This document shows, piece by piece, positions 1-22,551 of a stretch of 22,551 nucleotides of DNA; within the stretch, counting starts at the first letter, position 1; the number at the start of each line of letters is the position of its first letter. Made by a program: the position numbers and the translations under genes. Under the pieces are notes generated by a model. It ran no database searches and had not been told where the DNA came from. It saw nothing but the letters and a program-made list of their open reading frames with translations. The stretch covers positions 1 through 22,551 of IMG/VR virus record IMGVR_UViG_3300042197_001836. One strand, 5' to 3'. This stretch comes from a virus.

Positions 1-3000
1 AGCAGTGCTCTGATCGGCAGCAGTAGCAGCCTCAGGGTCTGTTTCATCATCATCTGCATGAGCCTCCATTGGCTGATGTAGATCGAGCTGGTCTTGCAAG
101 CGATCTGAAATCCAATTGATTGGATCACCATCGCGGGCCTTGGCAACACCATAGGGCATTTCGTCAAAATAGTATTCATAAAGTGCATCATAGAAATCTG
201 GAAAATCTGAAAGGTCTTCGCCCTCCTTAAAGGCTTTAACCGCTTCGGGGTAAGCATCAAGAATGGCGTCAAGACCTGAGCTGTTGCTTTCCTTGATTTC
301 AACCCCGGCTTTTTTCAATGCCGCAATAGCTGTGTCATCAAGTTCTGCAGAATCTAATTCTAGTTGTCCCTTGTTGTTGAATTTGACATCAGTGGTAGTG
401 CCAGTTTTGGCAAATTTAGTTTTGCCAGCAGTACCAGCCGCTGTAATAGTTCCCACAGTACCAATGTCTTCGCTGAATTGACTTTGGCGGAGAGTATTGG
501 CTGCATGGCGCACATAGTACACTGAGCCGTTGCGTGTGATATAGTGTGGTAAACGCTGACTGTCACCGCTCATGAATTCTGTGCCTGCCACTGGAATACG
601 AGTTACACGATTTTCCATGTCATATAAAATATAGCTCTTACCGTCTTGACTGACTCTTGCTTGGTCATAGATCTTGACGCTGCTGGCACCTACTTGTTGA
701 CGAGCACTTTGACGAGCAGCATCTATACGAGCTTGACGATCTACATTGGCCTGTGCGTCCCATGTTCTGCGCTGTGTTTCGCGCTCAAAGTCACGCTGGC
801 GAACACGCTCGCGATAGTTGGGACTAAAGATATCACTGAGCACTGAACCCACGCTGTGATTAAGTCCTGGATAGTGTGGATTTGCACCACCTTGTGCTTG
901 TGCTGAAGCACCGCCCATGGCAATACCAGCTGCCATTGCGGCTGGAATAATCTTCTTGGCCACATGTCCAAGAATGCTTTTGGCGTCCTCGCTGAGCCGA
1001 CCTTCTACAATGACGATAGCGTCAATGGGGTCTTGGTAGCGTTTTACCTGCTCAAGGATAACGCTTTCATGCAGGCTACTGCTAATCTGCTTGACTACGC
1101 GGCCTTCATGTACTAGTTGGATTCGAATCATGATTTCTTTTTCCTGTTTTAAATTGTTTAAGATTGTGTTGCGACCATTTTCTGCAATGTAACGCTGTGT
1201 CCATTGCTCGGCGATAGCCAAGCATTCTCTAATGAAATTTGCATCCTCATCAGTGATGCCTCTGCTGCCGCGGCCTCCGCGGCTGCGAATACGCTTGAGT
1301 TCATTGTAGGCAGCAACAATGGTATTTAGAGTATTGGTCAACTGTTTGATATTATGAGCAGCACCACGAAAAGCACCACCATGATTGCCTTCAAGGTCTG
1401 CTGCCAATGCGCGAGCTTCTCTGCGAGCCTTGTCTCTTAGACCTGCAAGACTATAACGACCTGCACCGCCCAGAACCAACACTTCAGAAGCATTCATTGG
1501 ATCTTCACGATCCAAACGATAGATAACGCTATCACTGTTTAGGGTGTGTGCCTCCGCTATACCTTTTGCTCGTGCTTCTTTTTCCAAGTCTAGTTTACGT
1601 TGACGAATTGCCTCTTGGTCATGACCTGGTTCGCGTTCTAAGTCTTGCAATACTCGGCGCTTTGCATCTAGGTCTTCTTTGCCTTGAAGTGCTGTTTCCG
1701 CCACACCTTCCTGCAGACCCGGAATAGGATGTAGCCCTTTGGGGATCTCGCCTGTCCAGTGTTGTGTTCCAGGGTGCTCTGGCAAATCGCGCATGGCATT
1801 GGGTTCGGCTAAGTCACATGACTTTGTGTGATGTAAAAAGATTGTACTGCCGCAATCGTAGCAAGGATAGGCATCAAAAGGATCTTGGCCGTCATCTCCG
1901 CCCGTTGAAAATTCATTCAAGGAGCCTTTCGCTAGACCTTTGTTTATTCTATTCAATTCATAGTGAACTTTATTACCAGCATCGGCCCTAAATGCTTTAA
2001 ACCCTAATGCTTTAGCATAACGCTGAACCAATCTATCATACAAATTAGCACGACTTTGTGTTTTTTGTCCAGGTTCAACTTCTTTGCTGGCTGAAAAGAT
2101 TACGCGGTTAGGTTTATATTTCTTAATAAATGTTCGAATAGCAACTAATACTGTAGCAAATATTCTCTGTGCGTCACCTTCGCCTGTTACTGCTTGACTG
2201 TCATTTCTATAAAATTCAACACTCCAGGCTTCTTCCCCTTCTTCATTTGCGTCTAGGTTAAACATGATACTTAGATCATCACCATTGGGTATTTCAGCGT
2301 AGGCTGTTACCTCATCCATGTCTAGTTCTGGATACCATTTTAGTTTGTAGGGTTGGTCAAAGGCTTCTTCTAACTCTTGTGCTTCCGCCACACCTTCCTT
2401 GTAAAATTGTTTTGCAGTATAGTGTCCTTCAATTTTTTTTGTTCTGGTATTGACAATATGATATTCTGTGTTTGAGTTTACTTCTTCTGACGCTAAGTCT
2501 TCTACAACTTTTAATGCTTCTCTCTTAGACAACATTTTAGTAGACACATCTTTTCCATTGATAAAGACCTTATAAACTCGACGATCGTATAACATTAGAT
2601 CTTCATCGCCTGCCATTGAATCTTTCCAATTTCCATCTTGCGTTTTGGTTTCCTTGCCATCCAATGATTTAGATTTACTCCCACCTAATTTGTCGCCTAT
2701 TGTTGAACCTACTATTCCGCCTGCAATCGCACCAGCGGCTGGCATTCCTATCATTGCTCCTAATTTAGCACCTGCCAAACTGCCCACGGTCGCTCCGGCA
2801 ATACCAGATTTCCAGCCCTCCGCCACAGCATGGCTTTCATAAACTCCGCGCCCAATATAGCTGGCACCCGAATCTGCTCGTTGCCCAACAGCACGACGAG
2901 CATTTTTTCTTCGAGCTCTGCGTGTACGGCCTGCAACAAACAAAGGATAGGCTACAGACGCAATATCCCCAGATGTAGTGGAGGCAGCGTCGGCTTCTTC

Positions 3001-3027
3001 GGTGGTAATGATCTGTCTAACTCGCAT
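1..3027 (-). CDS. Giant mosaic phage protein with GVAE repeats, 3' end outside window
   Basis: Uninterrupted frame of 1009 codons from ATG at 3027 to the window edge; no stop is seen, so the protein is longer. It begins with the tag MRVRQII. A glycine-zipper hydrophobic stretch lies at about residues 72-113. A module at about 224-345 ends in a YELNR-like segment; I recall similar modules in uncultured marine phages. A CxxC...HH...C cluster near residues 385-405 could bind zinc, and a charged helical stretch covers about 446-488. GVAE-type repeats sit at residues 67-71, 212-216, 441-445 and 489-493, mostly at module boundaries. Met633 (ATG at 1131, with AGGA upstream) starts a stretch that looks like its own protein: an amphipathic start, a small-residue hydrophobic segment near 690-710, a Gln/Arg-rich helix, then an acidic tail. 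Translation may therefore also begin there, but the frame is continuous. Function unknown; packaged virion or effector polyprotein is my inference. Confidence 0.8.
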   Translation of the reverse strand, partial: MRVRQIITTEEADAASTTSGDIASVAYPLFVAGRTRRARRKNARRAVGQRADSGASYIGRGVYESHAVAEGWKSGIAGATVGSLAGAKLGAMIGMPAAGAIAGGIVGSTIGDKLGGSKSKSLDGKETKTQDGNWKDSMAGDEDLMLYDRRVYKVFINGKDVSTKMLSKREALKVVEDLASEEVNSNTEYHIVNTRTKKIEGHYTAKQFYKEGVAEAQELEEAFDQPYKLKWYPELDMDEVTAYAEIPNGDDLSIMFNLDANEEGEEAWSVEFYRNDSQAVTGEGDAQRIFATVLVAIRTFIKKYKPNRVIFSASKEVEPGQKTQSRANLYDRLVQRYAKALGFKAFRADAGNKVHYELNRINKGLAKGSLNEFSTGGDDGQDPFDAYPCYDCGSTIFLHHTKSCDLAEPNAMRDLPEHPGTQHWTGEIPKGLHPIPGLQEGVAETALQGKEDLDAKRRVLQDLEREPGHDQEAIRQRKLDLEKEARAKGIAEAHTLNSDSVIYRLDREDPMNASEVLVLGGAGRYSLAGLRDKARREARALAADLEGNHGGAFRGAAHNIKQLTNTLNTIVAAYNELKRIRSRGGRGSRGITDEDANFIRECLAIAEQWTQRYIAENGRNTILNNLKQEKEIMIRIQLVHEGRVVKQISSSLHESVILEQVKRYQDPIDAIVIVEGRLSEDAKSILGHVAKKIIPAAMAAGIAMGGASAQAQGGANPHYPGLNHSVGSVLSDIFSPNYRERVRQRDFERETQRRTWDAQANVDRQARIDAARQSARQQVGASSVKIYDQARVSQDGKSYILYDMENRVTRIPVAGTEFMSGDSQRLPHYITRNGSVYYVRHAANTLRQSQFSEDIGTVGTITAAGTAGKTKFAKTGTTTDVKFNNKGQLELDSAELDDTAIAALKKAGVEIKESNSSGLDAILDAYPEAVKAFKEGEDLSDFPDFYDALYEYYFDEMPYGVAKARDGDPINWISDRLQDQLDLHQPMEAHADDDETDPEAATAADQSTA
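1550..1563 (-). repeat. GVAEG-family in-frame repeat, divergent copy (GIAEA)
   Basis: Minus-strand GGTATAGCGGAGGC, read as GIAEA at residues 489-493. It ends the charged helical segment and starts the next module. The peptide is conserved although the bases have drifted. Confidence 0.6.
1695..1707 (-). repeat. GVAEG-family in-frame repeat (GVAET)
   Basis: Minus-strand GGTGTGGCGGAAA, read as GVAET at residues 441-445. It is preceded by LQE and sits between the putative zinc-binding segment and a charged helical segment. Confidence 0.8.
2381..2394 (-). repeat. GVAEG-family in-frame repeat (GVAEA)
   Basis: Minus-strand GGTGTGGCGGAAGC, read as GVAEA at residues 212-216 and followed by QELEEA. 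The following bases continue nearly identical to the copy at 22018-22031, making a block of about 34 nt shared by the two end ORFs. Confidence 0.85.
2815..2829 (-). repeat. GVAEG-family in-frame repeat, divergent copy (AVAEG)
   Basis: Minus-strand GCTGTGGCGGAGGGC, read as AVAEG at residues 67-71 of the left mosaic ORF, just before the glycine-zipper module. It differs from the consensus GGTGTGGCGGAAGGC at two positions. Confidence 0.6.
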
Positions 3028-4539: not shown

Positions 4540-5247
4540 ATGGGCCCGATAATCTACACCCTTCTCGTCACGCATCTTACCATAATTTGTGTTACACTTT
4601 ACCTACATCGCAGCCAAGCACACAGGGGAGTCACATTCAATCCTGTAGTAGCACACTTCATGCGCTTTTGGCTATGGCTAACAACTGGCATGGTTACTTG
4701 CCAATGGGTGGCAGTACACCGCAAACATCACAGATTCACTGAAGCCAATGGCGACCCACACAGCCCACACGTGTATGGCTTGTGGCAGGTGTTGTTTGGT
4801 GGTGCATTTTTATATCACACAGCCAGCAAAGACTTGGCGATGGTCGAACAATATAGTGCCGGCACTCCTGCGGATTGGATAGAACAAAAACTATATACTC
4901 CGCACAGTCGCATAGGTATCATGCTTATGTTGCTGATTGACATTCTGCTATTTGGTGCCTGGGGCTTTGTAGTTTGGGGTATTCAAATGATATGGATACC
5001 ATTTTGGGCCGCTGGTGTCATCAACGGCCTAGGACACTGGTGGGGATATCGAAATGGCGAAACTCGAGATCAAAGCAGGAACATTAGTCCCTGGGGCATT
5101 CTTATTGGCGGTGAATGTCTGCACAATAATCATCACCTTGAACCCGGCAATCCTCGTCTCAGTCGCCGCTGGTTTGAATTTGATATAGGCTGGCTTTATA
5201 TACGCCTGTTATGCATTTTCAAATTGGCTCGGCTTCGAGTCCAATAA
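4540..5247 (+). CDS. Fatty-acid desaturase, delta-9 (acyl-CoA/acyl-lipid) type
   Basis: 235 aa, integral membrane di-iron desaturase. The three histidine boxes are present: HRSQAH near residue 23, HRKHH near residue 60 and HNNHH near residue 196. Two hydrophobic hairpins lie in the expected places (residues 3-20 with 38-60, and about 127-165). Known family members use O2 and electrons to place a cis double bond in an acyl chain. At 235 aa it is short for the family; the C-terminal cytoplasmic tail is reduced but the catalytic boxes are intact. The start has no strong ribosome site. It is the last gene of the plus-strand operon and its 3' end overlaps the convergent oxygenase gene by 39 bp. 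Likely an auxiliary gene altering host membrane fluidity, together with the nearby ACP; exact substrate unknown. Confidence 0.9.
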   Translation: MGPIIYTLLVTHLTIICVTLYLHRSQAHRGVTFNPVVAHFMRFWLWLTTGMVTCQWVAVHRKHHRFTEANGDPHSPHVYGLWQVLFGGAFLYHTASKDLAMVEQYSAGTPADWIEQKLYTPHSRIGIMLMLLIDILLFGAWGFVVWGIQMIWIPFWAAGVINGLGHWWGYRNGETRDQSRNISPWGILIGGECLHNNHHLEPGNPRLSRRWFEFDIGWLYIRLLCIFKLARLRVQ

Positions 5248-5946
5248 AGAAAAATTATCCGCAATGTGCTGCCACACGCCCTGTGGGCTTTTTGTGTGTG
5301 ACCATACCAGCTGAGCACTCACAGTAATTCTCCTGCCGGGCCCTTGCAATACCAAGTGTGGTCTATTTGTTCGCAACAACGCACTGGGCACAGAACTAGC
5401 AGTTTCAAAGTCAAAATCTGGACATTCTGCCCAGGTTTTTCGTCCTTCTGCTAGATCTTGATACCAAGGCACATTCCACTGATTGTGATAAACGCCAGCG
5501 GCTTCTCGTTTGTATGGTACAAGATCTGTTACCGGCACATTCCACCAGCGAATAATGCCAGGACTGCTGGCCAACTCGTAGTAGCTTAGTCGAGCTTCTA
5601 ACATGACACTTTCGCCTGACGGTAAACGAGTACCGTCCACATGCGGACTTAGATTTTCACCATTGGCTCCGCTGACAAATAAAGTAAAATTACGGCATTC
5701 AATGCCCAATGGTTTTAGAAATTCATTGGTATTTTGGTGCGTGAGCGGGAAAAATCGTTTAACATCAGCCGCTGGGCTCATTAATTCACGATTGCGAGCT
5801 GTTTGTTCTTGAAAATTCTGATCTACATATTGAAGGAATTTCTGTTTTTCACTGAGCTCAATGCGTAGGCTCACAGGATAAAAGTATTCCTGGTGAGCCA
5901 CTGCCGCGCTGTAAGGGTCCGGTCTTGACAGATTCTTTGTGCCCAT
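5209..5946 (-). CDS. 2-oxoglutarate/Fe(II) oxygenase-like protein
   Basis: 245 aa. The cupin-type facial triad pattern is visible: SPHVDGTRLPSG (H-x-D) near residue 121, a distal His in NRPHLVLQG near residue 204, and an Arg in GRRITVSAQ near residue 215 that would bind the 2OG carboxylate. SYYELASSPGIIRWWN between them fits the double-stranded beta-helix core. This is the arrangement of small phage Fe(II)/2OG dioxygenases; the substrate (protein side chain, nucleic acid or lipid) cannot be told. ATG directly abuts the stop of the ACP gene, so the two are coupled. Its 3' end overlaps the convergent desaturase. The similarity is from motifs only. Confidence 0.7.
   Translation of the reverse strand: MGTKNLSRPDPYSAAVAHQEYFYPVSLRIELSEKQKFLQYVDQNFQEQTARNRELMSPAADVKRFFPLTHQNTNEFLKPLGIECRNFTLFVSGANGENLSPHVDGTRLPSGESVMLEARLSYYELASSPGIIRWWNVPVTDLVPYKREAAGVYHNQWNVPWYQDLAEGRKTWAECPDFDFETASSVPSALLRTNRPHLVLQGPGRRITVSAQLVWSHTKSPQGVWQHIADNFSLLDSKPSQFENA
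5278..5293 (+). terminator. Candidate intrinsic terminator of the plus-strand operon
   Basis: GCCC-TGT-GGGC followed by TTTTT, 30 bp after the desaturase stop, inside the antisense coding sequence of the oxygenase gene. The stem is only 4 bp though GC-only, so support is moderate at best. Confidence 0.35.
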
Positions 5947-6189
5947 TTAATTTTGAATTTTACTTGTCAATACTTTATAAGCCCGTTCCATGTTAGTAAT
6001 ATATTCAGCCTCGTCGTCGGTTATTTCAATTCCAAATGCTTCTTCCCAGGCCATGATTAATTCCGCTACATCCAGGCTGTCAATGTCCAATTCTCTAAAT
6101 TCAGTGTGAATATTGTCAACTTCGACGCCAAAGCATTCATGTACTATCTTATTGATACGAATTTCTACATCAGTAAACTGTTGTGGCAT
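5947..6189 (-). CDS. acpP: Acyl carrier protein
   Basis: 80 aa, small and acidic, matching ACP length. The phosphopantetheine attachment motif DSLDVAEL is intact (Ser at about residue 38), preceded by FRELDID and followed by helix III (FGIEITDDEAEYITNMERAYKVL), as in bacterial ACPs. Holo-ACP carries acyl chains as thioesters for fatty-acid synthesis. It lies nine bases after the cyclase stop and immediately before the oxygenase. AGTGAGA upstream of ATG is a passable ribosome site. Phage ACPs are known from large marine phages; here it may supply or divert acyl chains for the desaturase, or bind a host ACP partner. The symbol denotes family resemblance. Confidence 0.9.
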   Translation of the reverse strand: MPQQFTDVEIRINKIVHECFGVEVDNIHTEFRELDIDSLDVAELIMAWEEAFGIEITDDEAEYITNMERAYKVLTSKIQN

Positions 6190-6198
6190 AGATTTATC

Positions 6199-8244
6199 TC
6201 ACTTGCTTGTGGCTCTATAAGTACCGTCCCAGTTAGGCGGGAGGCCTTCATTCATGCGTTCCAGCATATTTTCATAATAGTGGCGCAATTCGTTGTCTTC
6301 TTTGATCAGCTTTTCACAGGCTCGAATGGCTCGTGTCCAGTCGCCTCTGTAGTATGCTGTCAAATATATATCGTGCTGAGTGGGGTTTGTCTTGCCCAAG
6401 GTGTAGATTTTCACGCCCTGTGTTTTGCCTTTTACAGCAATGCAATCCAGCTCGACCACAGGATATTCATCTCGCACCAACTCTGCTGTGCGCTGTCCTA
6501 GAACAATTTTGACACCATACGGCTTAGACTGGCCCTCGAGTCTTGACGCCAAATTAACACCGTCGCCAAGGCAAGTGTAATCAAAACGCTGATCGCTACC
6601 CATATTACCCACAACAACGGAGGCAGTATTAATGCCAAGACCCATACCAAATGCTGGTATACCTTCTGCTGTAACTTCTCGATTAAATTCATCCAGGCTT
6701 TCCATCATTTCTAAAGCAGTCTTTACTGCCATGTGTGCATGACGAGCTTCATCAAGCGGCGCATTCCAAAATGCCATTTGTGCGTCACCAATATATTTGT
6801 CCAGTGTTCCGTTGTTTTCAATGATCTTGGCTGTCATTGCTGTCATATAACGGTTCATAATCCGAGTAAGGCCTTGTACATCTCGGCCATAGTGTTCGGA
6901 GATTGTGGTAAACCCACGCACATCGGTGAACATGATTGACAGCTCGCGCTCATCACCGCCTAGTTGTAGCAGTTCAGGATTCTTTTGCAATTTGGCAACC
7001 AAGGCTGGACTTAGGTAAGTGCCAAACTGTTTCTTGATCTGTTGCTTTTGCTTAAATTCAATCACAAACCTAGCAAACAATGCATGTCCATACAGCAACA
7101 CCGCCGCAAATACCAGATAGTACATGTCCCAGAGCTGACTGTAACTGGACCACAGATACAGTCCGCCCTGCACAATGACAGTGACCAGACCAGCCAAGAC
7201 CAGGATGGCCGCCCAGAACGGTACACGGGGTATGGCAAAAATAACAATGGCTGCAATCAGCACAATGCCCAAGAGTTCTGCAATGTTTGACCAAGCAGGA
7301 CGAGTTGGACTTTCGCCGTCAATAAGAGTTTGGATAGCCTGTGCTTGTAGATTGTGTGCCCAGGTTTCACCACGCGGCGTAGCAATGATACCGCCAAGTC
7401 CTTCCACAGCCAGTCCCAGCACTACAATTTTACCTTTGAGGTCAAGGTCTCTGCGACTGAGATCTCCAAGCTCGTAGCTTTGAAATTCTTTGTTCCAGCG
7501 TAGCCATATGCGACCATTGGCATCAGTGTCTATAATAGGCTGTCCGGCAATGCGTACTTTTTCTACTCCGGCTTCAGTCATCTTCATTTGATAGCTTTGC
7601 TCGCCAGTGTAAACACGAAGTGCTTCAAGCGGCAAACTTGGGTAGTATTCTTTGTTGACTGTGACAACAAGCGGCATACGGCGCACAACTCCATCCACTT
7701 CAGGGGCCGCAACAGTGGTGCCAACACCACGAGCACTTGTAGCCAGTTCGGGTCGTGGACTCAGTGCGCCTGGCCAGTTGTACAACCAAATATAAGGATC
7801 ACCGCCCATGACAGCAACGCCGCGACGAACAGCGTCGGGCTTTTTGTTTTGTGTAGTTGGAGTTTGTGCAATAACACTGGGGGCTTTATTCAAAGCCTGT
7901 GCTAGTTCAGTGTCACCGCCTAACCTGTCTTTTTCTGTCATGAGAATGGGAACAACAATGGCGCCTGCATCAAGTTCTTGTATGCGCTCGATGACCTGTG
8001 CTATTTCTCTGCGGTCCCAAGGCCATTGACCAAGTCGTACCATACTGGGCTCGCCAATGTCAATGATCACAACTTCGTCACTGGCCGTGACTGTTTCACT
8101 GCTTAACAAAGTATCAAAGCCCTTGAGCTGTAGACTCTGTACTGCGGCTGGATTATAGACCTTGAGCCAAATTAACAAAGCGGCAGTAACAGCCACCCAG
8201 ACCACGCTCCATACACTGGGTATCATTTTTAAATACTTTTTCAT
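6199..8244 (-). CDS. CHASE2-domain class III adenylate cyclase
   Basis: 681 aa from ATG at 8244; GAGGTGA lies 6 bases before it, which decides against the TTG one codon upstream. Order: N-terminal membrane helix (about 10-29); extracytoplasmic CHASE2 sensor (about 40-310; IIDIGEPSMVRLGQWPWDR, then GDTELAQAL); three membrane helices (about 320-395); class III cyclase domain (about 430-615); and a short tetratricopeptide-like helical tail. Catalytic residues look complete: metal-binding Asp in FTDVRGF and in YIGD, the adenine-specifying Lys in LDKYIGD, Asp in FDYTCLGD, and Asn/Arg in GVNLASRL. It should make cAMP from ATP in response to a periplasmic signal. Such full-length receptors are typical of bacteria, so it is probably host-derived. 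It heads a coupled block with ACP and the oxygenase. Confidence 0.93.
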   Translation of the reverse strand: MKKYLKMIPSVWSVVWVAVTAALLIWLKVYNPAAVQSLQLKGFDTLLSSETVTASDEVVIIDIGEPSMVRLGQWPWDRREIAQVIERIQELDAGAIVVPILMTEKDRLGGDTELAQALNKAPSVIAQTPTTQNKKPDAVRRGVAVMGGDPYIWLYNWPGALSPRPELATSARGVGTTVAAPEVDGVVRRMPLVVTVNKEYYPSLPLEALRVYTGEQSYQMKMTEAGVEKVRIAGQPIIDTDANGRIWLRWNKEFQSYELGDLSRRDLDLKGKIVVLGLAVEGLGGIIATPRGETWAHNLQAQAIQTLIDGESPTRPAWSNIAELLGIVLIAAIVIFAIPRVPFWAAILVLAGLVTVIVQGGLYLWSSYSQLWDMYYLVFAAVLLYGHALFARFVIEFKQKQQIKKQFGTYLSPALVAKLQKNPELLQLGGDERELSIMFTDVRGFTTISEHYGRDVQGLTRIMNRYMTAMTAKIIENNGTLDKYIGDAQMAFWNAPLDEARHAHMAVKTALEMMESLDEFNREVTAEGIPAFGMGLGINTASVVVGNMGSDQRFDYTCLGDGVNLASRLEGQSKPYGVKIVLGQRTAELVRDEYPVVELDCIAVKGKTQGVKIYTLGKTNPTQHDIYLTAYYRGDWTRAIRACEKLIKEDNELRHYYENMLERMNEGLPPNWDGTYRATSK

Positions 8245-8266
8245 CAATATTCACCTCGCTAGAATA

Positions 8267-8295
8267 ATTGTAACGGAACTACTTAGCGAAGTCAA
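8267..8295 (-). promoter_or_regulatory. Sigma70-type promoter of the adenylate cyclase gene
   Basis: Minus strand reads TTGACT (8290-8295), exactly 17 bp, then TACAAT (8267-8272), 22 bp before the ATG. Both hexamers match consensus at 5 of 6, with ideal spacing. It falls in a 59-bp gap, one of the few in the window, so it probably drives cyclase-ACP-oxygenase from host RNA polymerase. Confidence 0.75.
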
Positions 8296-8303
8296 ATCTA
8301 GGA

Positions 8304-13194: not shown

Positions 13195-13683
13195 TTAAAT
13201 TCTAAATGCTGCATATGGCATTACTAGTTCGGTAAAGTTGTTGGGGTTACCAATTTCTTCAATGCGTACAATGATATTGTTACCAGAAATACGCCAGGTT
13301 ATGTTCTGTCCGCCAATGTCAATGTCACCACAAGGTCCACCCGAAGACAATGGAGTACATGTTGGAGTGCCTGTAGATGAACCAAACAAGCTGTCAGTGA
13401 TGCGTTTTGCTAGTTCACTGTAGATTCGTGTTTCCATGCTGGCTTGGAATCTAGCCTGTGGTGTGTTGGCTGCGGCTCTTTCTGCAGCCTGCTTGATTGC
13501 ATCTGCGGCAGCTTTGTTTTTGTCTTTTTGCTGATCTTCTAATTGTTTTAGTGTCAGCACATGACTACTCCATCCCAAGCCTGAGAATGAAGGACTGTTG
13601 AAGTTATGTTGAAGTTCAGCGGCAGCAACGGAACTAATCGCACACATTGCCGCGGCAGTAACAAGACAATTTTTAATTTTCAT
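13195..13683 (-). CDS. csgF: Curli assembly factor CsgF
   Basis: 162 aa with a signal peptide (MKIKNCLVTAAAMCAISSVA-A). The mature N terminus LQHNFNSPSFSGLGW matches the CsgF region that inserts in the CsgG pore (NP-F-G type), and the C-terminal part (FQASMETRIYSELAKRITDS, then GDIDIGGQNITWRISGNNII) matches the CsgF core. An extra Lys/Ala/Gln-rich helical stretch lies in the middle (about residues 52-80). Known CsgF binds CsgG at the cell surface and couples secretion to nucleation. csgF-csgG is co-transcribed with csgF first. The ribosome site is weak (TTAGGGTTAG). Confidence 0.9.
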   Translation of the reverse strand: MKIKNCLVTAAAMCAISSVAAAELQHNFNSPSFSGLGWSSHVLTLKQLEDQQKDKNKAAADAIKQAAERAAANTPQARFQASMETRIYSELAKRITDSLFGSSTGTPTCTPLSSGGPCGDIDIGGQNITWRISGNNIIVRIEEIGNPNNFTELVMPYAAFRI

Positions 13684-15238: not shown

Positions 15239-15954
15239 TAGATTGTAATACCCTGCTTGCCCAATGTTTCTCTAGCATCGGCCAAGATTGCGTCGGCATT
15301 TGGATTATTTTCAAGTGCGGAGAGTGCTGCCTCCACGCTGGTCAATGCCGACCTATCATGTTCTTCACCAAAAATCATGTGAGCAATTTCATCTGGTTGA
15401 TCAGTGACCAGCTCGTTGGTTTCTCTGCTGAGCAGTCCGTTAGTGGGACTCCATTTATAACCAGCATGTTTGGCCACTGAACTTAGTACAACATGTTTGC
15501 TGGCATCTTTGTGTTGGCTGTTAGGATCAGCAGCCATACTAAACTTTGCAAACTTTAGGTTTGGCAAAAACATAAAATCTGTCTGTACAAATCCACGATC
15601 TGTTGAGCCGCCAATGGGAGTTTTAAAATGTACACTGACGCCGCTTTTCTTAATACAGTCCTTGGCATCCATGTTGTTTTTACCACACCATGCTGTGAGT
15701 TTGGCAATTAATTCGTCTTTGCCAACACCCGGCGGCATACCAATGTCTAGGTCACCACTGGTGGGTTTTTTACCAGTGGTGCCTAGCATGTGTGGTACAT
15801 GTTCGTAGCTGGTGATTTTTTCCAGCCAGCGAACAGTGGGTTCTACATCTGCTTGATTAATGCGTTGCGTGAGAATTTCACCGTCTTTGCTTTTAAAGAC
15901 ATTGCCACCTTCTTTGACAACACGAAGCGTTGTTGTAATTTCACGCAATAACAT
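15238..15954 (-). CDS. Phage nucleotidyltransferase-like protein
   Basis: 238 aa from ATG at 15954, four bases after the previous stop; the longer frame extending upstream is a Leu/Lys-rich shadow of the repeat in the neighbouring gene. It starts MLLREITTTLRVV. The core motif LGTTGKKPTSGDLDIG (about residues 57-72) is the G-S/T...D-x-D signature of pol-beta-type nucleotidyltransferases; a third acid is plausible in FVQTDFMFLPN (about 124). Known relatives transfer NMP to tRNA or proteins, or are antitoxin partners; the substrate here is unknown. Coupled to the 484-aa gene. Another such fold sits in the 1116-aa protein. Confidence 0.75.
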   Translation of the reverse strand: MLLREITTTLRVVKEGGNVFKSKDGEILTQRINQADVEPTVRWLEKITSYEHVPHMLGTTGKKPTSGDLDIGMPPGVGKDELIAKLTAWCGKNNMDAKDCIKKSGVSVHFKTPIGGSTDRGFVQTDFMFLPNLKFAKFSMAADPNSQHKDASKHVVLSSVAKHAGYKWSPTNGLLSRETNELVTDQPDEIAHMIFGEEHDRSALTSVEAALSALENNPNADAILADARETLGKQGITI

Positions 15955-15958
15955 TATA

Positions 15959-16309
15959 TCAAACTGCCTTTTTCTTACGACGAGTAGCTGTCTTCTTCTT
16001 AGGCTTGGCTTCTTCTGCAACAGGAGCAGGAGCAGGAGCCGCTTCATCAGGAGCAGGAGCCGCTTCATCAGGAGCAGGAGCCGCTGCAACAGGAGCAGGA
16101 GCAGGAGCCGCTTCATCAGGAGCAGGAGCAACAGGCACAGTATCTAAAACAGTTAGACCAGCAACATTGTGTGCCACTGTTGTGGTCTCAGCTGATGCTT
16201 CTACCTTGTATGGTGCAGCCTCTTCGGCCACTGCTGACTTTTCTTCTTTGTTCCTAAAGAAGAAAAACCAAACTCCAACGGCTACGGCGGCTATGATAAG
16301 GATTTCCAT
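15959..16309 (-). CDS. N-terminally anchored Pro/Ala-rich repeat protein with basic tail
   Basis: 116 aa. Hydrophobic anchor at residues 2-18 (EILIIAAVAVGVWFFFF) followed by Arg-Asn-Lys, then an acidic/polar stretch, then tandem PAPDEAA / PAPAPVA units (about residues 60-97), and a strongly basic end (KPKKKTATRRKKKAV). The layout, a membrane helix, extended Pro/Ala rod and basic tip, resembles TonB-like or nucleic-acid-tethering proteins, but no TonB motif is present. AAGGAAATTAAAATG gives a good ribosome site. It starts the unit that continues with the nucleotidyltransferase. Function unknown. Confidence 0.75.
   Translation of the reverse strand: MEILIIAAVAVGVWFFFFRNKEEKSAVAEEAAPYKVEASAETTTVAHNVAGLTVLDTVPVAPAPDEAAPAPAPVAAAPAPDEAAPAPDEAAPAPAPVAEEAKPKKKTATRRKKKAV
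16022..16135 (-). repeat. Tandem ~21-nt repeats encoding PAPDEAA units
   Basis: GGAGCAGGAGCCGCTTCATC-like units recur about four times, with shorter GGAGCA units between. They encode the Pro/Ala/Asp/Glu rod. Copy number could change by replication slippage; all units keep the frame. Confidence 0.8.
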
Positions 16310-16389: not shown

Positions 16390-19300
16390 CTAATTTAATA
16401 GCAGTTTTGTTATTTCATTGCGGTATTTGGCCAACATAAGCTTGGTTTTATTGGCCTTTTCTAAGGCGGCTGGTGTAGCTGCCTTGTCAAATTTACTGGA
16501 ATTAATGACCTTTTCCAGTTTGCTGTCAAGTACACGAGCAATTTGTTGCATCATGTCTTGTTTGTTGGCAACATGATCCAGCGCACCTGTGCCAAGCAAT
16601 TTGGCCTGCTCTAGGTCTGTGACCAATGCTTTAATGGTCAACACAATGTCGCTGATGCGCTGTTCGTCCTTGAGTCCACCGTGCTTGGCCAAATTACCTG
16701 GAATTTTGGGTTTGGCACCATGTGCCAGTTCATAGTAGTAAGCATAGATATCTGCACCCCAATTTTCTGGGTCCAGGCTTACTGTGGCAAGTTCAGTGTC
16801 CTTGCTTTGACGGAAATTCACCGGGCGGCCTGCACGAGTCTTGACTTGTACACCCTGTACACCTATGCTGAGGTTTAGCACTTCGGCAAGACTACTGACC
16901 AAGCTGGTGTTGATTACACCCTTGACACGATATTCAGGTGCCAGCATTCTAGCCCAGTTGGCATGTTCATGATAGGTATAGATTAGGTCAACCTGTACGG
17001 GTCCAGCTGAAGTATCCATGATAACATTGGTACCGTTGCTGGTACTGTACTTGGAATGGCCTTGTGTGAATTCTTCAACGGCTGCGGCATATTCACTGGT
17101 ACGACGAGCAGCACCTATGCCTTCTCTGCTGTGAATATAGCACATGACATCTACATCACCGTATTCTCTTTCAGGATCCTGTACAAGATCACGCTTGTAG
17201 TATGTGCCAGACCCAACAGGTCTACCCATCTTGATTTCAACATCAAGGCCCTTTTCTGCTTGCCACTGATTGAATTCAGTTTCAAATTCTTTTAGTATGC
17301 CCACTGCTTCTTCAATTACCGCAGGTGTAATCTTGGTGTTTTGTGTAGCAGTACTGGCCCAGCCACCTTCGTCCAGCAAGGAATGTCCACCTTCCATGAT
17401 GGCCATTTGCATGGGTGTAAAAGATTCATTTCTGCCGCTTTTCATGTTGGCACACCAGTGTGCCATTCGTTGTCGTTCGCCCGAGCTGGCTGCTGCCAAA
17501 CGGCGTAATTCAGCAACACTCTTACTGCAATCTACACCCATGCGTTTGGCCAAGCCCTTGCGTCCGGGCTTTCGGCCATCAGCAAAGTTTTCGCCAACTT
17601 CTTTGGTTGATTCAGATAACAGTGATGCATCAGCAAACCAAGGATCGATGATTACCAGTTGTCCATTGGCTCTACGCATGACATTTTCTGTGTGCAGGTC
17701 CCAGCCCATCTTGTTGATCCGTCCAGTCTTGTACAGCATGGCCATAACAGAATACAACAAGTTCCAAGCAGCCTCGTTGGCACCTGACAAACTAGAGACC
17801 TTGGCAGCTAGTTGATCTGCATGACGCGGCCAGTGAGAATTAATCCAAGGATGCGGATCTGACAGTTCTTGTTTGACTTGAGGCCAGGGCGTGCCGCGAG
17901 CAACATAGTCGCTGAGATACCAGATCATGGCTTCTTCAAAGGTGTTTTTCTTGACGGGATACAAGCGTTCCATATCAATTTGAATGTATTCTTTGTCTAG
18001 GACATCAATGGTGTTGTATTCATTGAACACAGGCAAACAAGGAATATCAGTCCGCTCTTGGCAGAACTCGTAGAACTTTTTAAAAACTTCTACAGCCTGA
18101 CTGCCCTCATCTTCGGGCATGAGAATCTTGATTACATGACTGTCGTCTTTGGCCCATATTGTACTGTCAGCGCCGCTGCCAATTTTGGAATATCCCAGTT
18201 TGCGGAATTCTCGGGAAATGTCTCTAGCATAGGCTGTGCCTGTTTCTGCTTCTCTTACACCCACTTCCGGACGCCATATCATGTTCTTGGCACCTTTTAC
18301 CGTGGGCTGAAAGCCATGTCCGCGATAAAACTTCATCAGCTTGGCTTGGCTGACACGACCCTTGTCCCAAGGGAACAATGTCAATGCCACACCATGTTCT
18401 TTTGCCATGCCTTGCAGTTCTTTCATGGCACGACTGCCTACGCCCTTTCGTAATGGATAAGCTTGAATCCATTTGATTTCTACAGCATTGGGTCTACCAA
18501 AGCTGGGAACTAGCTCAAACATGGCAACTTGTTGCTCTTCGCCTGACCCCCAGCTTATCACATGATTGTTTTGAAAGGTGTAGGGATAACGAGCATAAAC
18601 TGCATCAATAAACTCTCGAGCGCGGCCAGCGTCTTGACTTTTTAGTTTTATAGGTTCTTCGTTCATGACCACAGTAGTGCCAGTTTCAGCAACAGCCTCT
18701 GATGTATGGTGCTTGGAAAGATCAAATGTGACTTCACCATAAGAACCACCTGATTTGACTTTTACTGGGCCTTTAAAAACTTCATTGGGTTTGACACTTG
18801 TTCTAAAGATATTATTAGCAACAGAAAGGTTGGCATGAGTGTGTAATTCGCCATCTTTGTCATACACCACAACCAGAGGGTTTTCATCTGTTTCGCGCGA
18901 ATTTTCTACTTCACCCAAGCCAATTTTACCTGGATATAGTAGTCCTGATCTAATTCGTTCGCCACCGTCAAAGTATTTTAGTTCAACTGGCAAAGTGTCC
19001 CAGCCCAGGCGATCTGCTGCCATGATTCTGTGATTGCCTTCCATGACCCAGGGTTCGCCATTCCATGCCACACAGACAAACGGCTTGTATTCTTCGCCGC
19101 GGCTGGTTAGTGGCAGCTTGCCTGTGTCTTTCATGATTTTCATAATGGCTGCAAGGTCTTCCTGACGAACATTTTTTTGTTCGCCACGAGCACCAGGTAT
19201 GCGAGCCAATAAGCTGACAGGTAACACCACATGTGAAGGCTGTCTCACATACGCAGTTGTACTGCCCATGTAAGGAACACCAAAGCTGTCGCGACCACGC

Positions 19301-19740
19301 TTTTTAGCATAGGCAATTTTGTCTTCCAGCCATTCTTCTCTAGGCACATCGGTTACTAATGAGGCTTCATTTACAGGAAGACCACGATCGGCTGCCGCCG
19401 CGGAATTGATATCCCACCACTCGCCGGGGAAATATTCCACTTCCAGCATGTCAGCAGGTACTGTGTTGGATACTATGATTTCTTGATCGTCGCGCTGAAT
19501 GCCATTGGGGTTTTTGGGATAGACACCAAATTTGTCAACCAGATCTAGCCAGCGCACACGAAACATAGTGGCATCAGCAGCATCAACATGATAGAAACCT
19601 TCATCAGGCTCGTAGGCAAAATACACGCCGGAGCCTGCGTAACCGTGCTTGCTGGGAATCAACCCTTTGTGTTTTACACTTTCTAGCCCGCGTGGCAAAT
19701 AGCCTGCATGATAAACATATTCGCCTGGTGTTCTTGTCAT
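16390..19740 (-). CDS. 1116-aa five-module effector: ART-like, ParB-like, GNAT, kinase-like, nucleotidyltransferase
   Basis: Modules by motif: (1) residues ~1-110, ADP-ribosyltransferase-like (YHAG..., GLIPSKHGYAGSGVYFA, then DQEIIVSN). (2) ~165-270, ParB/sulfiredoxin-like (KPFVCVAW, EGNHRIMAADRLG). (3) ~370-490, GNAT acetyltransferase (RKGVGSRAMKELQ; LMKFYRGHGF). (4) ~505-705, kinase-like: Gly loop KIGSGADSTIW, Lys in HVIKIL, catalytic GWDLHTENVM and DPW in the DFG place. (5) ~722-770, RKGLAKRMGVDC...RMAHWCANMKSG module, which I recall from other phage proteins. (6) ~835-1030, nucleotidyltransferase with VGSGTYY, YGDVDVM and QVDLIY, giving three acids. Linkers AVAETGT and REAETGT separate modules 2/3 and 3/4. 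No signal peptide. It starts 6 bases after the zincin-like gene. Probably a packaged multi-enzyme effector, by analogy with T4 Alt; no activity is proven. Confidence 0.85.
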   Translation of the reverse strand: MTRTPGEYVYHAGYLPRGLESVKHKGLIPSKHGYAGSGVYFAYEPDEGFYHVDAADATMFRVRWLDLVDKFGVYPKNPNGIQRDDQEIIVSNTVPADMLEVEYFPGEWWDINSAAAADRGLPVNEASLVTDVPREEWLEDKIAYAKKRGRDSFGVPYMGSTTAYVRQPSHVVLPVSLLARIPGARGEQKNVRQEDLAAIMKIMKDTGKLPLTSRGEEYKPFVCVAWNGEPWVMEGNHRIMAADRLGWDTLPVELKYFDGGERIRSGLLYPGKIGLGEVENSRETDENPLVVVYDKDGELHTHANLSVANNIFRTSVKPNEVFKGPVKVKSGGSYGEVTFDLSKHHTSEAVAETGTTVVMNEEPIKLKSQDAGRAREFIDAVYARYPYTFQNNHVISWGSGEEQQVAMFELVPSFGRPNAVEIKWIQAYPLRKGVGSRAMKELQGMAKEHGVALTLFPWDKGRVSQAKLMKFYRGHGFQPTVKGAKNMIWRPEVGVREAETGTAYARDISREFRKLGYSKIGSGADSTIWAKDDSHVIKILMPEDEGSQAVEVFKKFYEFCQERTDIPCLPVFNEYNTIDVLDKEYIQIDMERLYPVKKNTFEEAMIWYLSDYVARGTPWPQVKQELSDPHPWINSHWPRHADQLAAKVSSLSGANEAAWNLLYSVMAMLYKTGRINKMGWDLHTENVMRRANGQLVIIDPWFADASLLSESTKEVGENFADGRKPGRKGLAKRMGVDCSKSVAELRRLAAASSGERQRMAHWCANMKSGRNESFTPMQMAIMEGGHSLLDEGGWASTATQNTKITPAVIEEAVGILKEFETEFNQWQAEKGLDVEIKMGRPVGSGTYYKRDLVQDPEREYGDVDVMCYIHSREGIGAARRTSEYAAAVEEFTQGHSKYSTSNGTNVIMDTSAGPVQVDLIYTYHEHANWARMLAPEYRVKGVINTSLVSSLAEVLNLSIGVQGVQVKTRAGRPVNFRQSKDTELATVSLDPENWGADIYAYYYELAHGAKPKIPGNLAKHGGLKDEQRISDIVLTIKALVTDLEQAKLLGTGALDHVANKQDMMQQIARVLDSKLEKVINSSKFDKAATPAALEKANKTKLMLAKYRNEITKLLLN

Positions 19741-19746
19741 GGTTCT

Positions 19747-20589
19747 TTACATCACATAAATCTTGCCAACAGCTTCGCTGAGCACATCGCTGAACATGAT
19801 TTCCATGTCTCTGGCCAGCAATTCTGTGGCATGTTGTCTTTCTGTTTCATCTCTAAGCTCTGCTGATCGCACAGACATAACTCTAGTAGGTCGACCCCAG
19901 GCTTGTCGACCATACCCAATGCTCACTGGCAGAGGATTAAGTTCGATTCGGCCTTTGCCCAAGTATTGTGCAAACAGTTCATAGAGGAATTCATAGGGTC
20001 TGCGTATTTCGCCTTCTCTACTGCTACGCTGTGTACCAATGGCATTGAATAAAGCATTGTATTCTTTGCTGAGTTCATATTTTAATTCGCCACCAGGCTG
20101 GCCAGCCTTGCCGTAGAAGGCTTGTAGTATTTGATTGATGTTGCTGAAAAAGTGTCGTTCGGCTTCTTGCCAAGTGTTGCTGGTAGCTTTCTTGCCTCTT
20201 CCACCGGCCACAATGGCATGACCAAATCTATGTGCCATAACCCAAGGAGTAAGCATACGCTTGGCATCTCCCTTGTTGCCCACAAACACTATGGTAATGG
20301 CATCTTCATGCCCGCGAACAATTTCTTCGCCATCCTCGCCAAAAATAATTTTCACAGTTGCCGGATCCATTGGGCCATATTCGCTGTAGCGTCCAGTGCC
20401 AGATACATTGCTGAAAAACAAGCGAAAATCATAAGGAGTTTGTTCAAAGAATCTTTCGGCCTTGATGCGATTCCGTGGATGCGGAACCAGCTTTTTATCA
20501 GGCCCTCTAAAAGGACCGGGTTTATCGAAGTTACCAATGGGCTGATAATCAGCCATGGGTACTTCGCTGATTATGTCACGCAATCTCAT
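19747..20589 (-). CDS. 280-aa phage protein, degenerate zincin-like
   Basis: ATG at 20589 overlaps the previous stop (TGATG). N terminus MRLRDIISEV is the best form of the tag shared in this window. Residues ~122-133 (TPWVMAHRFGHAI) look like an HExxH metalloprotease helix with the catalytic Glu replaced by Arg, and PYEFLYELFAQYLG (about 203-216) sits where a third zinc ligand is usual. If zinc still binds, protease activity is unlikely because the general base is lost. The C terminus ends LSEAVGKIYVM. It may be a structural or packaged relative of zincins. Family not recognised with certainty. Confidence 0.75.
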   Translation of the reverse strand: MRLRDIISEVPMADYQPIGNFDKPGPFRGPDKKLVPHPRNRIKAERFFEQTPYDFRLFFSNVSGTGRYSEYGPMDPATVKIIFGEDGEEIVRGHEDAITIVFVGNKGDAKRMLTPWVMAHRFGHAIVAGGRGKKATSNTWQEAERHFFSNINQILQAFYGKAGQPGGELKYELSKEYNALFNAIGTQRSSREGEIRRPYEFLYELFAQYLGKGRIELNPLPVSIGYGRQAWGRPTRVMSVRSAELRDETERQHATELLARDMEIMFSDVLSEAVGKIYVM

Positions 20590-22551
20590 CAGTGGAACAG
20601 GAGATAACTGCCAATGACATCATTACGATTGGCCGAATTATCACCGTCTCCTGGCATTACAATCACATTCCACTTTGGCGTGTCACCCACTGGTGTGTCC
20701 ATCATTTGGTCATATGTGAGAATACTGGCTTTGTCAATGGCATAGTGTTTGGCCATGCGTGTTTTAAAATCCTCAAGATTTTCTGGACTGACAAACTGCA
20801 TACGGCCTTTGGCATCCTTGATTAGATTCAAGCCCTTGCGAGCAACTAGATCAAAGAACATGTCCTTGGGCACTACCTTGCTGTGCTTGACTCGATTGAA
20901 GTCTACTTTCTTTTCCTGTCCGCTGAGTGCGCCTTGACTGAAGTTCATGTTGAAGTTCTTGGGGCGATCACCAGTGGCCACATCAGCAATCTTGGTATAT
21001 GCATAAAAACCCACATCAGGATTGTCTCTGGCAACACCATAGGCCATGTCCAAGTACTCTGGGCTAAAGAAATCTCCAGCATCATGCCAACGCACAACAA
21101 CGCGAGCACCCTTCTTGGCCATCTTGGATCTTGCGGCAGCAATTTCTGCATTCAGCTTGTTGGCAAATCCTTCGGGGTCATTGAGCAAGAAGTTGAGCAT
21201 ACGAGCTAGACCCATGCTCACAGCCTTAAACATCACATAGCTGCCTTTCATGGCATAGCAGTAGGTCTTGCAAGCACCGGCTCCGGGGCAAGTATCTACC
21301 ACAACAAACTGCCCGGTCTTTTCATTCACAGCAAGACCCTTCAATGCTGGTAGACCGATATCAAAGATTGCTTCTGTTCCAGTTTCGCTGTGTTGCATCT
21401 TGGCGTTTTGCCCCAGGATGCTGGCAGGTCTGGTCATGATTTCTTTTCTTAGGCTGTCAAGGTCATATTTGCGACCTTCTTCGTTTTTGATTTGAATACT
21501 GGAAGCATGTACATAAGGGTAATCATACTTGTCGCGCTTGGTCTTTTCTTTGCTCTTGGTACGATCCAAGAACGCTTGCATTTCATCGTCGGGTATGTCG
21601 CGATAGTTTGCGCCAAGTCCAAAGTCGCCAGGTGCTTCGTTTACAGATTCATTGGCAGCAATGTCAGCACCTTTGTTGAAACTATTGCTGTGTGAATTTG
21701 GAACACGACCTTTGCGCTGATACCAGTTGTAACCGGCTTCGTGTCCACTGCAATCCCTGGTGCAGGTACTGCCTTTGAAAGTCAATTCATCGACACGACT
21801 GTAGTGTTCATCGTGGCCGGAAATTTCCATTTCGGCATGGTCTTCGGCATCGGCCAAACTGTAAAACCATTCTGGCTGAATTTGACCTCTCCACTCACCT
21901 ACGCCGCGAGCAGTATAAGCATCTCTGTTGAAACTGTGATAGATGATGTATCCTTTGCCCTGTCCGGCAATGGTAATTCTGTCGGGATTTTCTGTGTTGG
22001 CTTCTTCTAAATCTTGTGCTTCCGCCACACCTTGTTGACCTGTAAGTTCTGCATATTCGTCCCAATAAAAATCTAAACTATCTTGCAAAACTGACTGTGC
22101 AAATTTGGAACCATACTTTTGATCCAATAGGCTCCATAGTTCTTCACCAAACTCATCACGGTCGTAATCCGACACTTCGCCGGCTATGCGTTTGACAACG
22201 GGCAGCACACGGTTGTATTCTCTGTCGCCTAAAAAGCCTTCCGCCACACCTTGCTTCTTATAATAGAAACTATGAACATCAGACTCTGGATTATACTTGA
22301 CAACTAAATCACCAACAGTAAATTCATCTCCATATTCTTCTACTGCTTGAGCAAAACCGGTAGCATCACCAAAGATGTGTTCAATCACATCATCATCGGT
22401 GCAGTTACCAATGTAGTTTAGATTGTCCGAGCCTTCTGCCACACCTTCTTCTTTGACGCTGACAACCTTGGCCATGGAGTAATGTCGAGCAAATTTTTCT
22501 CGAGCTACTCGCTCGCTTTGTGCTTGCACACGGTATGTTTTACGGCCGCCT
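20589..22551 (-). CDS. GVAEG-repeat mosaic protein with C-terminal GP88 domain, 5' end outside window
   Basis: Open to the right edge; the first usable start inside is GTG at 22529, but the frame continues upstream (first full codon at 22550), so it is truncated by the window. Counting from 22529, GVAE(G/A) repeats are at 29-33, 94-98 and 167-171, bounding two small modules of about 60-70 residues. A Cys/His segment STCTRDCSGHEAGYNWYQRK (~254-273) precedes SFNKGADIAANESVNEAPG. The C-terminal half (~385-646) resembles phage GP88-type proteins: CPGAGACKTYCYAM, VRWHDAGDFFSPEYL, AYTKIAD. GP88 function is unknown; the Cys cluster may bind a metal or cluster. It is followed at once by the tagged zincin-like gene (TGATG). 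Confidence 0.85.
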   Translation of the reverse strand, partial: GGRKTYRVQAQSERVAREKFARHYSMAKVVSVKEEGVAEGSDNLNYIGNCTDDDVIEHIFGDATGFAQAVEEYGDEFTVGDLVVKYNPESDVHSFYYKKQGVAEGFLGDREYNRVLPVVKRIAGEVSDYDRDEFGEELWSLLDQKYGSKFAQSVLQDSLDFYWDEYAELTGQQGVAEAQDLEEANTENPDRITIAGQGKGYIIYHSFNRDAYTARGVGEWRGQIQPEWFYSLADAEDHAEMEISGHDEHYSRVDELTFKGSTCTRDCSGHEAGYNWYQRKGRVPNSHSNSFNKGADIAANESVNEAPGDFGLGANYRDIPDDEMQAFLDRTKSKEKTKRDKYDYPYVHASSIQIKNEEGRKYDLDSLRKEIMTRPASILGQNAKMQHSETGTEAIFDIGLPALKGLAVNEKTGQFVVVDTCPGAGACKTYCYAMKGSYVMFKAVSMGLARMLNFLLNDPEGFANKLNAEIAAARSKMAKKGARVVVRWHDAGDFFSPEYLDMAYGVARDNPDVGFYAYTKIADVATGDRPKNFNMNFSQGALSGQEKKVDFNRVKHSKVVPKDMFFDLVARKGLNLIKDAKGRMQFVSPENLEDFKTRMAKHYAIDKASILTYDQMMDTPVGDTPKWNVIVMPGDGDNSANRNDVIGSYLLFH
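22018..22031 (-). repeat. GVAEG-family in-frame repeat (GVAEA)
   Basis: Minus-strand GGTGTGGCGGAAGC, read as GVAEA at residues 167-171 and followed by QDLEEA. Near-identical to the left-ORF copy at 2381-2394 and its flank. Confidence 0.85.
22236..22250 (-). repeat. GVAEG-family in-frame repeat (GVAEG, consensus copy)
   Basis: Minus-strand GGTGTGGCGGAAGGC, read as GVAEG at residues 94-98, preceded by KKQ. This is the copy used as consensus. Confidence 0.85.
22431..22445 (-). repeat. GVAEG-family in-frame repeat (GVAEG)
   Basis: Minus-strand GGTGTGGCAGAAGGC, read as GVAEG at residues 29-33 of the right mosaic ORF, after KEE. One base (A for G) differs from the consensus. Confidence 0.8.

Follow-up and report, generated by a model that had tools for sequence, protein, structure and literature searches.

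A short in-frame DNA seam at module joints in mosaic genes of large T4-like phages

Seam copies in the window and the seam family

The window, defined here as the whole of the 22,551-base IMG/VR fragment IMGVR_UViG_3300042197_001836, carries mosaic open reading frames (ORFs) at both ends. These are ORF 1 and ORF 2, each truncated by a contig end. Within them lie seven copies of a short sequence that encodes GVAE/G or a close variant, where the slash marks the joint between two protein modules. This sequence is referred to as the seam, and residues before the joint are numbered backward from Glu at P1. The seam is a phage family at the DNA level, kept in frame, with the consensus [CGA]AAGGTGTGGCGGAAGGC. 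Modules are exchanged at it, and its peptide is under selection as [LIVM]xE. Features are collected in Table 1; L numbers denote loci and G numbers denote records.

All seven copies described in an earlier sequence-only reading of the window are present, and they lie on the minus strand, in a single reading phase and in the end ORFs, as it had stated. The exact 12-mer GGTGTGGCGGAA has four copies in the window and a fifth copy is one base off. With up to one mismatch allowed, these five compare with a shuffle mean of 0.07 and a shuffle maximum of 1. The GIAE/A copy has five differences from the 15-mer and falls outside the list of matches with up to three mismatches. One member of that list, at position 1924, reads GLAKG and was rejected as a seam. 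Self-comparison of the window also found a 35-bp stretch (2362-2396) with 97% identity to 21999-22033. The reading had placed no copies in the 18 kb between the end ORFs. This holds for the DNA sequence but not for the peptide, since ORF 4 contains AVAE/T in ordinary codons, the sole joint of the seam kind in the central region, alongside ordinary peptide matches such as SVAEL.

The seams at both window ends are probably the points where the assembly broke, because other contigs show an excess of seams near their ends: a seam lies within 300 nucleotides of a contig end in 11 of 36 whole-contig loci, with 3.2 expected. Contig ends at seams suggest that module order varies within populations and so breaks assembly. 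Seams near contig ends were also seen in G012, G019, G024, and G025.

In the viral collection, the 15-mer occurs in at least 120 stretches. Among the stretches listed, the GVAEG frame is the longest open frame at 148 of 162 sites. In the 80 listed loci it is the longest of six frames at 94 of 102 sites and the longest of the three forward frames at 96, and in 40 held-out loci it is the longest at 54 of 60. A set of 34 GVAE sites came from loci fetched by protein and was hence not selected for DNA. The exact GGTGTGGCGGAA is present in 25 of these, where background codons predict less than 1%. Their codons are GGT (34 of 34), GTG (30), GCG (29), and GAA (33), against 45%, 26%, 9%, and 84% for the same codons in the same ORFs; overall, GCG is used in 85-88% of seams and 9-11% of the background. 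The codon choice is fixed, and the seam has therefore spread as DNA. In loci fetched with the 15-mer, the codon preceding the seam is CAA, GAA, or AAA (Q, E, or K) in 147 of 171 cases and CAG once. It is almost never a G-ending synonym, so the shared DNA extends two bases further.

Two controls were used, a synonymous 15-mer built from commoner codons and a scrambled 15-mer. The synonymous 15-mer occurs in at least 120 stretches, a total not comparable with that of the canonical 15-mer, with 64 of 84 sites in the GVAEG frame and without the preceding-codon bias. Seam 14-mers number 125 in 724 kb of the canonical loci against 1 in 691 kb of its 80 loci, and the replication of this comparison gave 65 against 3. 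The scrambled 15-mer occurs in 65 stretches, shows no clear frame preference, and has no seam 14-mer in 574 kb. The earlier proposal of copying at the DNA level is thus upheld by the codon tally and by both controls.

Seams within one contig are no more alike than seams of different contigs (12.42 and 12.35 matches of 14), and no homogenising within genomes was seen in this comparison. Among 13 records chosen for carrying the seam, copies number from 1 to 6 per record and are mostly clustered. The 12-mer counts in three whole or nearly whole records (3, 1, and 1) equal the counts of GVAE[GA] in their mosaic ORFs. A Chi-like recombination signal was considered and rejected, as the copies are few and confined to mosaic ORFs rather than spread irrespective of frame. 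A host origin was also considered. The 18-mer occurs once each in 26 bacterial or archaeal stretches, whose GC content is 53-74%; the seam frame is the longest one in 9 of them, and these matches are taken as chance.

Module exchange and selection at the seam

The exchange test used 294 sites in 132 ORFs, with up to three mismatches allowed and with Glu and V or I required, and compared the 30-residue flanks. There were 187 homologous pairs, of which 87 are homologous on the left only, 89 on the right only, and 11 on both sides, so that 176 are one-sided. Three draws of random control points in the same ORFs, at least 40 residues away from any seam, gave two-sided and one-sided counts of 56 and 34, 63 and 34, and 65 and 29. 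Controls at a fixed offset of 36 residues gave 61 and 26, and 76 and 43. Forty held-out loci were compared among themselves and against the first set; homology is one-sided in 116 of 117 seam pairs and in 43 of 82 control pairs, including 8 of 30 when control points were compared with each other. Over the first test and the replication, control points are one-sided in 31-52% of cases. Homology is thus one-sided at the seam, and modules have therefore been exchanged there. Orthologues with the repeat at fixed positions, which the sequence-only reading had named as evidence against itself, are nearly absent. The 11 two-sided pairs comprise 7 in which two contig pairs carry nearly identical copies and 4 whose sites are not canonical seams. 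A constraint test on orthologous joints failed for the same reason, almost no such joints being available.

The change-over is narrow. In terms of identity, the codon before the seam tends to track the left neighbour and the codon after it the right neighbour, so the change-over lies within about 12 bases. Within one chain, seams are spaced 22-318 amino acids apart. The module between the seams at 22236-22250 and 22431-22445 in ORF 2 has relatives at 71-82% protein identity to the window copy. Relatives of this DSNLSY type share 97-100% DNA identity among themselves over 180 nucleotides in six contigs, with other left flanks. Upstream of this module, 10 of 15 pairs lose identity within the seam or at its edge, and the five L395 pairs lose it after two bases. 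Downstream, it stops inside the seam in 6 of 15 pairs, those among L390, L392, L393, and L394; L391 and L395 have a different common joint, SLSE/T, and a common next module. ORF 4 and its relative in L005 (88% aligned identity) differ by stretches of 73, 91, and approximately 157 residues. As far as the approximate gap placement of the alignment shows, these stretches sit at [VLI]xE joints or close to them. That the repeats mark module joints, as first proposed, agrees with the exchange test, its held-out replication, and these insertions between relatives. The proposal of a mini repeat element stands in part; the sequence does mark joints, and it is less an inserted element than a seam for module exchange.

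Selection on the seam peptide was examined by holding three seam codons canonical and leaving the fourth free, with its residue unconstrained. The Glu codon is GAA in 147 cases, GAG in 12, and AAA in 2, that is, 12 silent and 2 replacing changes, a silent excess with P of about 1e-7 at kappa 2. The Ala codon has 9 silent and 16 replacing changes (silent excess not significant, P 0.11). The Val codon has 7 silent changes, 5 changes to M, L, or I, and 1 to Ala, and the Gly codon of the first set has 0 silent and 11 replacing changes. Glu and Ala differ when all changes are counted (Fisher P 0.006). In the held-out loci, silent and replacing changes number 2 and 0 for Glu, 4 and 0 for Val, 2 and 5 for Ala, and 0 and 4 for Gly.

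Scans of the complete collection for second-base mutants gave 54 at P2, 19 at P3, and 40 at P1, of which 43, 13, and 9 are in frame. Those with another seam in the locus number 33, 7, and 4; this filter also counts GVxE-type seams and may favour P2 a little. As distinct contexts they number 20, 6, and 4 (P 0.0005 against equal numbers; P 0.009 for P2 against P3 and P 0.0015 for P2 against P1). The tolerated changes spare Glu at P1 and mostly keep P3 aliphatic, whereas P2 is not spared. The earlier statement that drifted copies keep the peptide is borne out by the codon tally, the controls, the exchange test, and the held-out loci.

The same modules also occur at other joints. A search of 195 post-seam modules against ORFs of at least 60 amino acids in 96 loci and three records found 326 places, 193 following [VI]AE and 133 in other contexts (118 non-redundant). 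Glu directly precedes the module in 76 of these 118 (background 6.9%), and 67 of the 76 have V, L, M, or I at P3 (background 19%). L or I is at P3 in 28 of the 76, and some of the others are drifted seams such as GVEE and GVTE. Several modules directly follow a targeting-like N-terminus (RSQEFITE, RATEFITE, RAKEFISE, KVREIISE). In Vibrio phage nt-1, an AFDQPY-type module follows LTE. At the GVRE/AETGTAYA joint of ORF 4, L005 has an additional 91 amino acids and L009 an additional 514 ending in GVAE/AETGTAHA.

Head genes, interpretation, and alternative explanations

By protein comparison, the window belongs to a large T4-like phage. The 285-kb record G003, among relatives fetched by protein, has counterparts of 15 of the 18 window ORFs compared (ORF 1 was left out), and almost all of these fall in two neighbouring 20-kb pieces. 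Comparison with 50,697 phage records gave no match to the window DNA, and ORF 4 has none at the protein level in the phage collection. Prohead protease gp21 (PF03420) and capsid protein gp23 (PF07068) are both present in G003, G004, G005, and G009. Searches for gp21 in sets of 10 and 18 records gave matches in 4 and 6, respectively. Among seam-bearing records of at least 100 kb that were searched, 9 of 14 have gp21, and the same 9 carry gp23; G017, which has gp21, is left out of this count because its single 15-mer lacks the usual context. In G020, which has no gp21 match, the contig ends inside the portal gene, so the absence is uninformative. Capsid proteins of the gp23-bearing records have LTE/T, LSE/S, LKE/N, LLE/N, or LAE/S at the likely cut, as placed by resemblance to T4.

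Of the 54 seam ORFs whose start could be read, 25 have a targeting-like N-terminus, against 76 of 775 genes of three records, by a pattern written after the N-termini had been seen. In L079, a targeting-like peptide, GVAE, and a single module make up a whole protein of 91 amino acids, and an ORF of L111 has the same beginning followed by further seams. As a separate observation, the starts of seam ORFs in L085, L109, and L141 resemble the capsid cleavage region (RYVLES-ASGGGTSAG and KYLTE-TATAGGTASG).

T4 gp21 is described as cutting after L/I-X-E, and the T4 internal protein IPIII as requiring a 10-residue N-terminal targeting peptide, in which Asp at position 10 inhibits processing (PMC9026906). 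The seam pattern matches this T4 motif when it is widened to V and M. The seam peptide has a likely job as a prohead-protease site, which the sequence-only reading had not proposed.

We consider it probable that the mosaic proteins are effector polyproteins of large T4-like phages, that they are packaged in the head, and that a gp21-type protease cuts them at the seam, through which their modules are also shuffled. The parts of this account that we infer are the gp21 cleavage, the packaging, the injection, and the seam itself as the recombining sequence. GVAE/G would be the cutting site, and the seam would join interchangeable modules. One long gene would in this way supply the mature head with a number of individual small proteins, and these would be injected along with the DNA. 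As each module starts directly behind a site of this kind, any two seams would be interchangeable in frame. Recombination through the shared 12-17 bp would swap modules between genes and between phages, and this swapping would keep the seam uniform as DNA and not as peptide alone. T4-like phages recombine strongly. The narrower proposal of one 17-bp in-frame adaptor, common to many phages and acting both as a recombination joint and as the prohead-protease site that releases modules in the head, appears about evenly balanced. If true, one swap would directly yield a working, cut, and injectable protein. The account would then make clear how phages assemble and reshuffle the set of proteins delivered to the cell along with the DNA, would tie domain shuffling to a single short testable sequence, and would make each piece obtained by cutting the chain after a seam a candidate injected effector.

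Several points weigh against this account. In the replication, control points compared with the first set are themselves one-sided in 35 of 52 pairs, and pairs in the exchange test have sequences in common and so are not independent of one another. Among pairs whose homologous flanks have diverged to 50-80% identity, those homologous on the left only have an identical seam in 4 of 21 cases and those homologous on the right only in 15 of 32, so uniformity is incomplete. Taken by itself, the silent excess of the Val codon falls short of significance (P 0.066), and with single-base changes only, the Fisher comparison of Glu with Ala gives P 0.06. Among the other contexts of the modules, 42 of 118 lack Glu at P1, although some matches start a few residues off. 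The targeting-peptide pattern fails in 29 of 54 seam ORFs, and G008, G012, G021, and G022 gave no gp20, gp21, or gp23. Counts of GVAE[GA] in G003, G009, and G004 are 3, 1, and 1 against shuffle means of 0.27, 0.28, and 0.23, and are not above the largest shuffles (3, 3, and 2); a broader peptide class exceeds its shuffles only in G003 (14 against a mean of 5.9 and a largest of 13). The excess over shuffles anticipated by the sequence-only reading is therefore clear for the 12-mer in the window and barely seen for the peptide in these three whole phage records. The peptide enrichment over whole genomes is weak; what carries the argument is the identity of the DNA, the exchange of modules, and the way in which the codons change. 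The seam was not found in S-SM2, Bellamy, or P-SSM2, and we know of no phage isolate that carries it. The protease idea also leaves the pattern of the Gly codon unexplained. With the other three codons canonical, GGT shows 0 silent and 15 replacing changes over both sets (L005-L020, L079-L198), which hints at some demand at the DNA level. Finally, the seam has V at P3, outside the published L/I of T4, and no gp21 site with V at P3 was encountered in the available portions of the gp21 literature (PMC9026906, PMC9958956).

In a first alternative, the seam would primarily be a signal in the DNA, at which a site-specific endonuclease or recombinase would act to move cassettes of modules in an integron-like manner, with the peptide as a by-product. 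The silent sites held at the seam, the AA kept in the preceding codon whatever its residue, the GGT codon, and the precise and partly recent exchange all agree with this. The Ala codon, however, takes replacing changes while the Glu codon takes nearly none, which is an amino-acid pattern, and other joints of the same modules often have only [LIVM]xE in common and not the DNA. A DNA signal is thus unlikely. The same convergence on [LIVM]xE, both at other joints and directly after targeting-like N-termini, speaks against a plain flexible linker that is carried along by modules and never cut, its Glu serving solubility or being due to chance. Glu is kept, and P3 mostly stays aliphatic, while P2 and P4 vary, and such a linker appears quite unlikely even though predicted order at seams is low (by a weak model) and the seam spreads with modules.

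Alternatively, a different Glu-specific protease, from the phage or the host, could cut the polyproteins once they have been injected and not in the head. The targeting-like N-termini, the cleavage contexts like those of capsid proteins, and the gp21 found in 9 of 14 large seam-bearing records make this quite improbable, and the 5 records without a gp21 match (one ending in the portal gene) are what it has in its favour. That the seam is no more than a conserved motif belonging to a single domain, or an excess due to chance, is hardly credible. Some GVAE-like peptides in the loci are indeed ordinary (for example, KAVAEEL) and whole-genome peptide counts are small, but at the canonical seam one flank changes while the other stays, and the frame and codon controls oppose this explanation.

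Under the preferred account of head-packaged polyproteins cut at the seam, the closest known systems are the T4 internal proteins IPI-III and Alt with their gp21 processing. As described in the available portions of PMC9026906 and PMC9958956, these would resemble the seam proteins in a short targeting-like N-terminus, in the likely cut after Glu with an aliphatic P3, and in likely injection. They lose terminal propeptides, whereas seam proteins would have several sites between modules of one chain, with V at P3 and a site conserved as DNA. Homologues of gp21 and gp23 are present in many seam-bearing genomes. Polyvalent proteins (Iyer et al. 2017, PMC5512222) are likewise long, multidomain, mosaic, and effector-like, and are thought to be packaged and injected. 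In the portions of that source available, their release is ascribed to embedded peptidase domains, unlike the seam proteins, and neither interdomain prohead sites nor a DNA-conserved seam is described. Head proteins of phiKZ and SPN3US are cut after Glu by distant gp21 relatives, and some are ejected. In SPN3US, 13 of 14 known cuts remove N-terminal propeptides, the motifs are SXE and AXE, and no chain of swappable modules appears in the portions available (PMC5694885, PMC10052503).

Short common sequences for module exchange also occur as PeSL cassettes of T4-type phages and boundary linkers of lambdoid phages. These lie between genes, whereas the seam is intragenic and in frame, and the peptide it encodes is under selection. 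Rickettsia palindromic elements are also dispersed repeats within open frames, but they are longer inserted palindromes, while the seam is 12-17 bp and marks exchanged modules. A literature search for GVAEG together with phage found no paper, subscription papers and preprints being mostly outside its coverage. Among the papers listed on prohead protease combined with polyvalent proteins or polyproteins, on modular shuffling, and on targeting and virion proteomes, no title or opening abstract describes such seams.

Features of the window and module content

Table 1. Seams, modules, other joints, and targeting-like N-termini in the window, with one seam at a contig end elsewhere.
Feature	Position	Strand	Basis	Remarks
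Seam GVAE/G	22431-22445	-	Sequence match, frame, flank comparison	Junction of AQSERV module and DSNLSY-type module
Mobile module DSNL..FYYKKQ	22251-22430	-	Protein and DNA comparison	Relatives in other contigs
Seam GVAE/G	22236-22250	-	Sequence match, flank comparison	Exact 15-mer; follows DSNLSY-type module
Helical module FLGDREY..GQQ	22032-22235	-		Seams at both sides; L120 copy has a different left neighbour
Seam GVAE/A	22017-22031	-	Sequence match, structure model	Follows helical FLGDREY module
Drifted seam AVAE/G	2815-2829	-	Sequence match, frame	
Seam GVAE/A	2380-2394	-	Sequence match	
Seam GVAE/T	1693-1707	-	Sequence match, module search	Downstream module recurs in L134 following GMTE
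Drifted seam GIAE/A	1549-1563	-	Frame, flank comparison	L134 has the same left module ending GVAE/G
Joint SVNE/APGDFGLGANY	21636-21647	-		IAE/APGDFGLG in L007 and L009
Joint AVAE/T	18682-18696	-		Ordinary codons; edge of 73-residue stretch missing from L005
Joint GVRE/AETGTAYA	18250-18261	-	Module search, alignment	
Joint EVGE/NFADGRKPGRKG	17590-17601	-		Module elsewhere after AKE, MAE, ISE, LFE, MSE, VDE
Joint LLDE/GGWAS	17368-17379	-		LAE/GGWAS in L005; ITE/GGWAS in L009
Joint ELEE/AFDQPY	2365-2376	-		Not a DNA seam; module elsewhere after LSE, LDE, VNE
Joint-like SLNE/FSTG	1912-1923	-	Only resemblance to LNE/FAPG in relatives	
Mosaic ORF 1, capsid-targeting-like N-terminus MRVRQIITTE	1-3027	-		3' end cut by contig end
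Capsid-targeting-like N-terminus MRLRDIISE	20563-20589	-		ORF 19747-20589; G003 counterpart starts MKIRDLINE
Capsid-targeting-like N-terminus MILRDIIVVE	15209-15238	-	Resemblance	ORF 13784-15238
Possible capsid-targeting-like N-terminus MLLREITTT	15928-15954	-		Inside ORF 15238-16131; weakest of the four
Mosaic ORF 2	20589-22550	-		C-terminal GP88 domain; 5' end cut by contig end
Mosaic ORF 4	16390-19740	-		Weak kinase-like and ParB-like PHROG matches; module insertions relative to L005 and L009
Seam at or near contig end	G024:C1:260134-260147 of 260148			Also L107, L127, L139

Five ORFs were scanned for domains and gave ParB_N, amidoligase, nucleotidyltransferase, and GNAT matches, with one ORF lacking any match. 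The L017 ORF has amidoligase and nucleotidyltransferase matches above cut-offs, so that one polypeptide holds at least two distinct domains. Most modules have no domain match. By analogy, the module matches fit injected effectors of the polyvalent kind, as far as these are described in the available portions of PMC5512222. Overall, the structure model of ORF 2 has low confidence (mean pLDDT 49); its residues 43-98 and 110-172 form better-predicted blocks, and the low-confidence stretches that bound them hold the three seams.

The window also contains a curli-type cluster (5209-13683) with CsgG (PF03783, 2.6e-51), CsgF (PF10614), a FecR-domain protein, a protein with CHASE2 and nucleotidyl cyclase domains, and an acyl carrier protein. 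Two of its ORFs look like curlin repeats by eye and have no Pfam curlin match. Counterparts are present in G003 (cyclase 82%, CsgG 61%) and in L005 and L010 (CsgG 92%). Curli and CsgG are mentioned in papers on marine phages (PMC9599517, PMC9004378, PMC7029224). A 116-amino-acid ORF (15959-16309) has tandem APAPDEAAP-type repeats and a hydrophobic N-terminal segment. A fatty acid desaturase is encoded at 4540-5247, with 74-78% identity in four related records.

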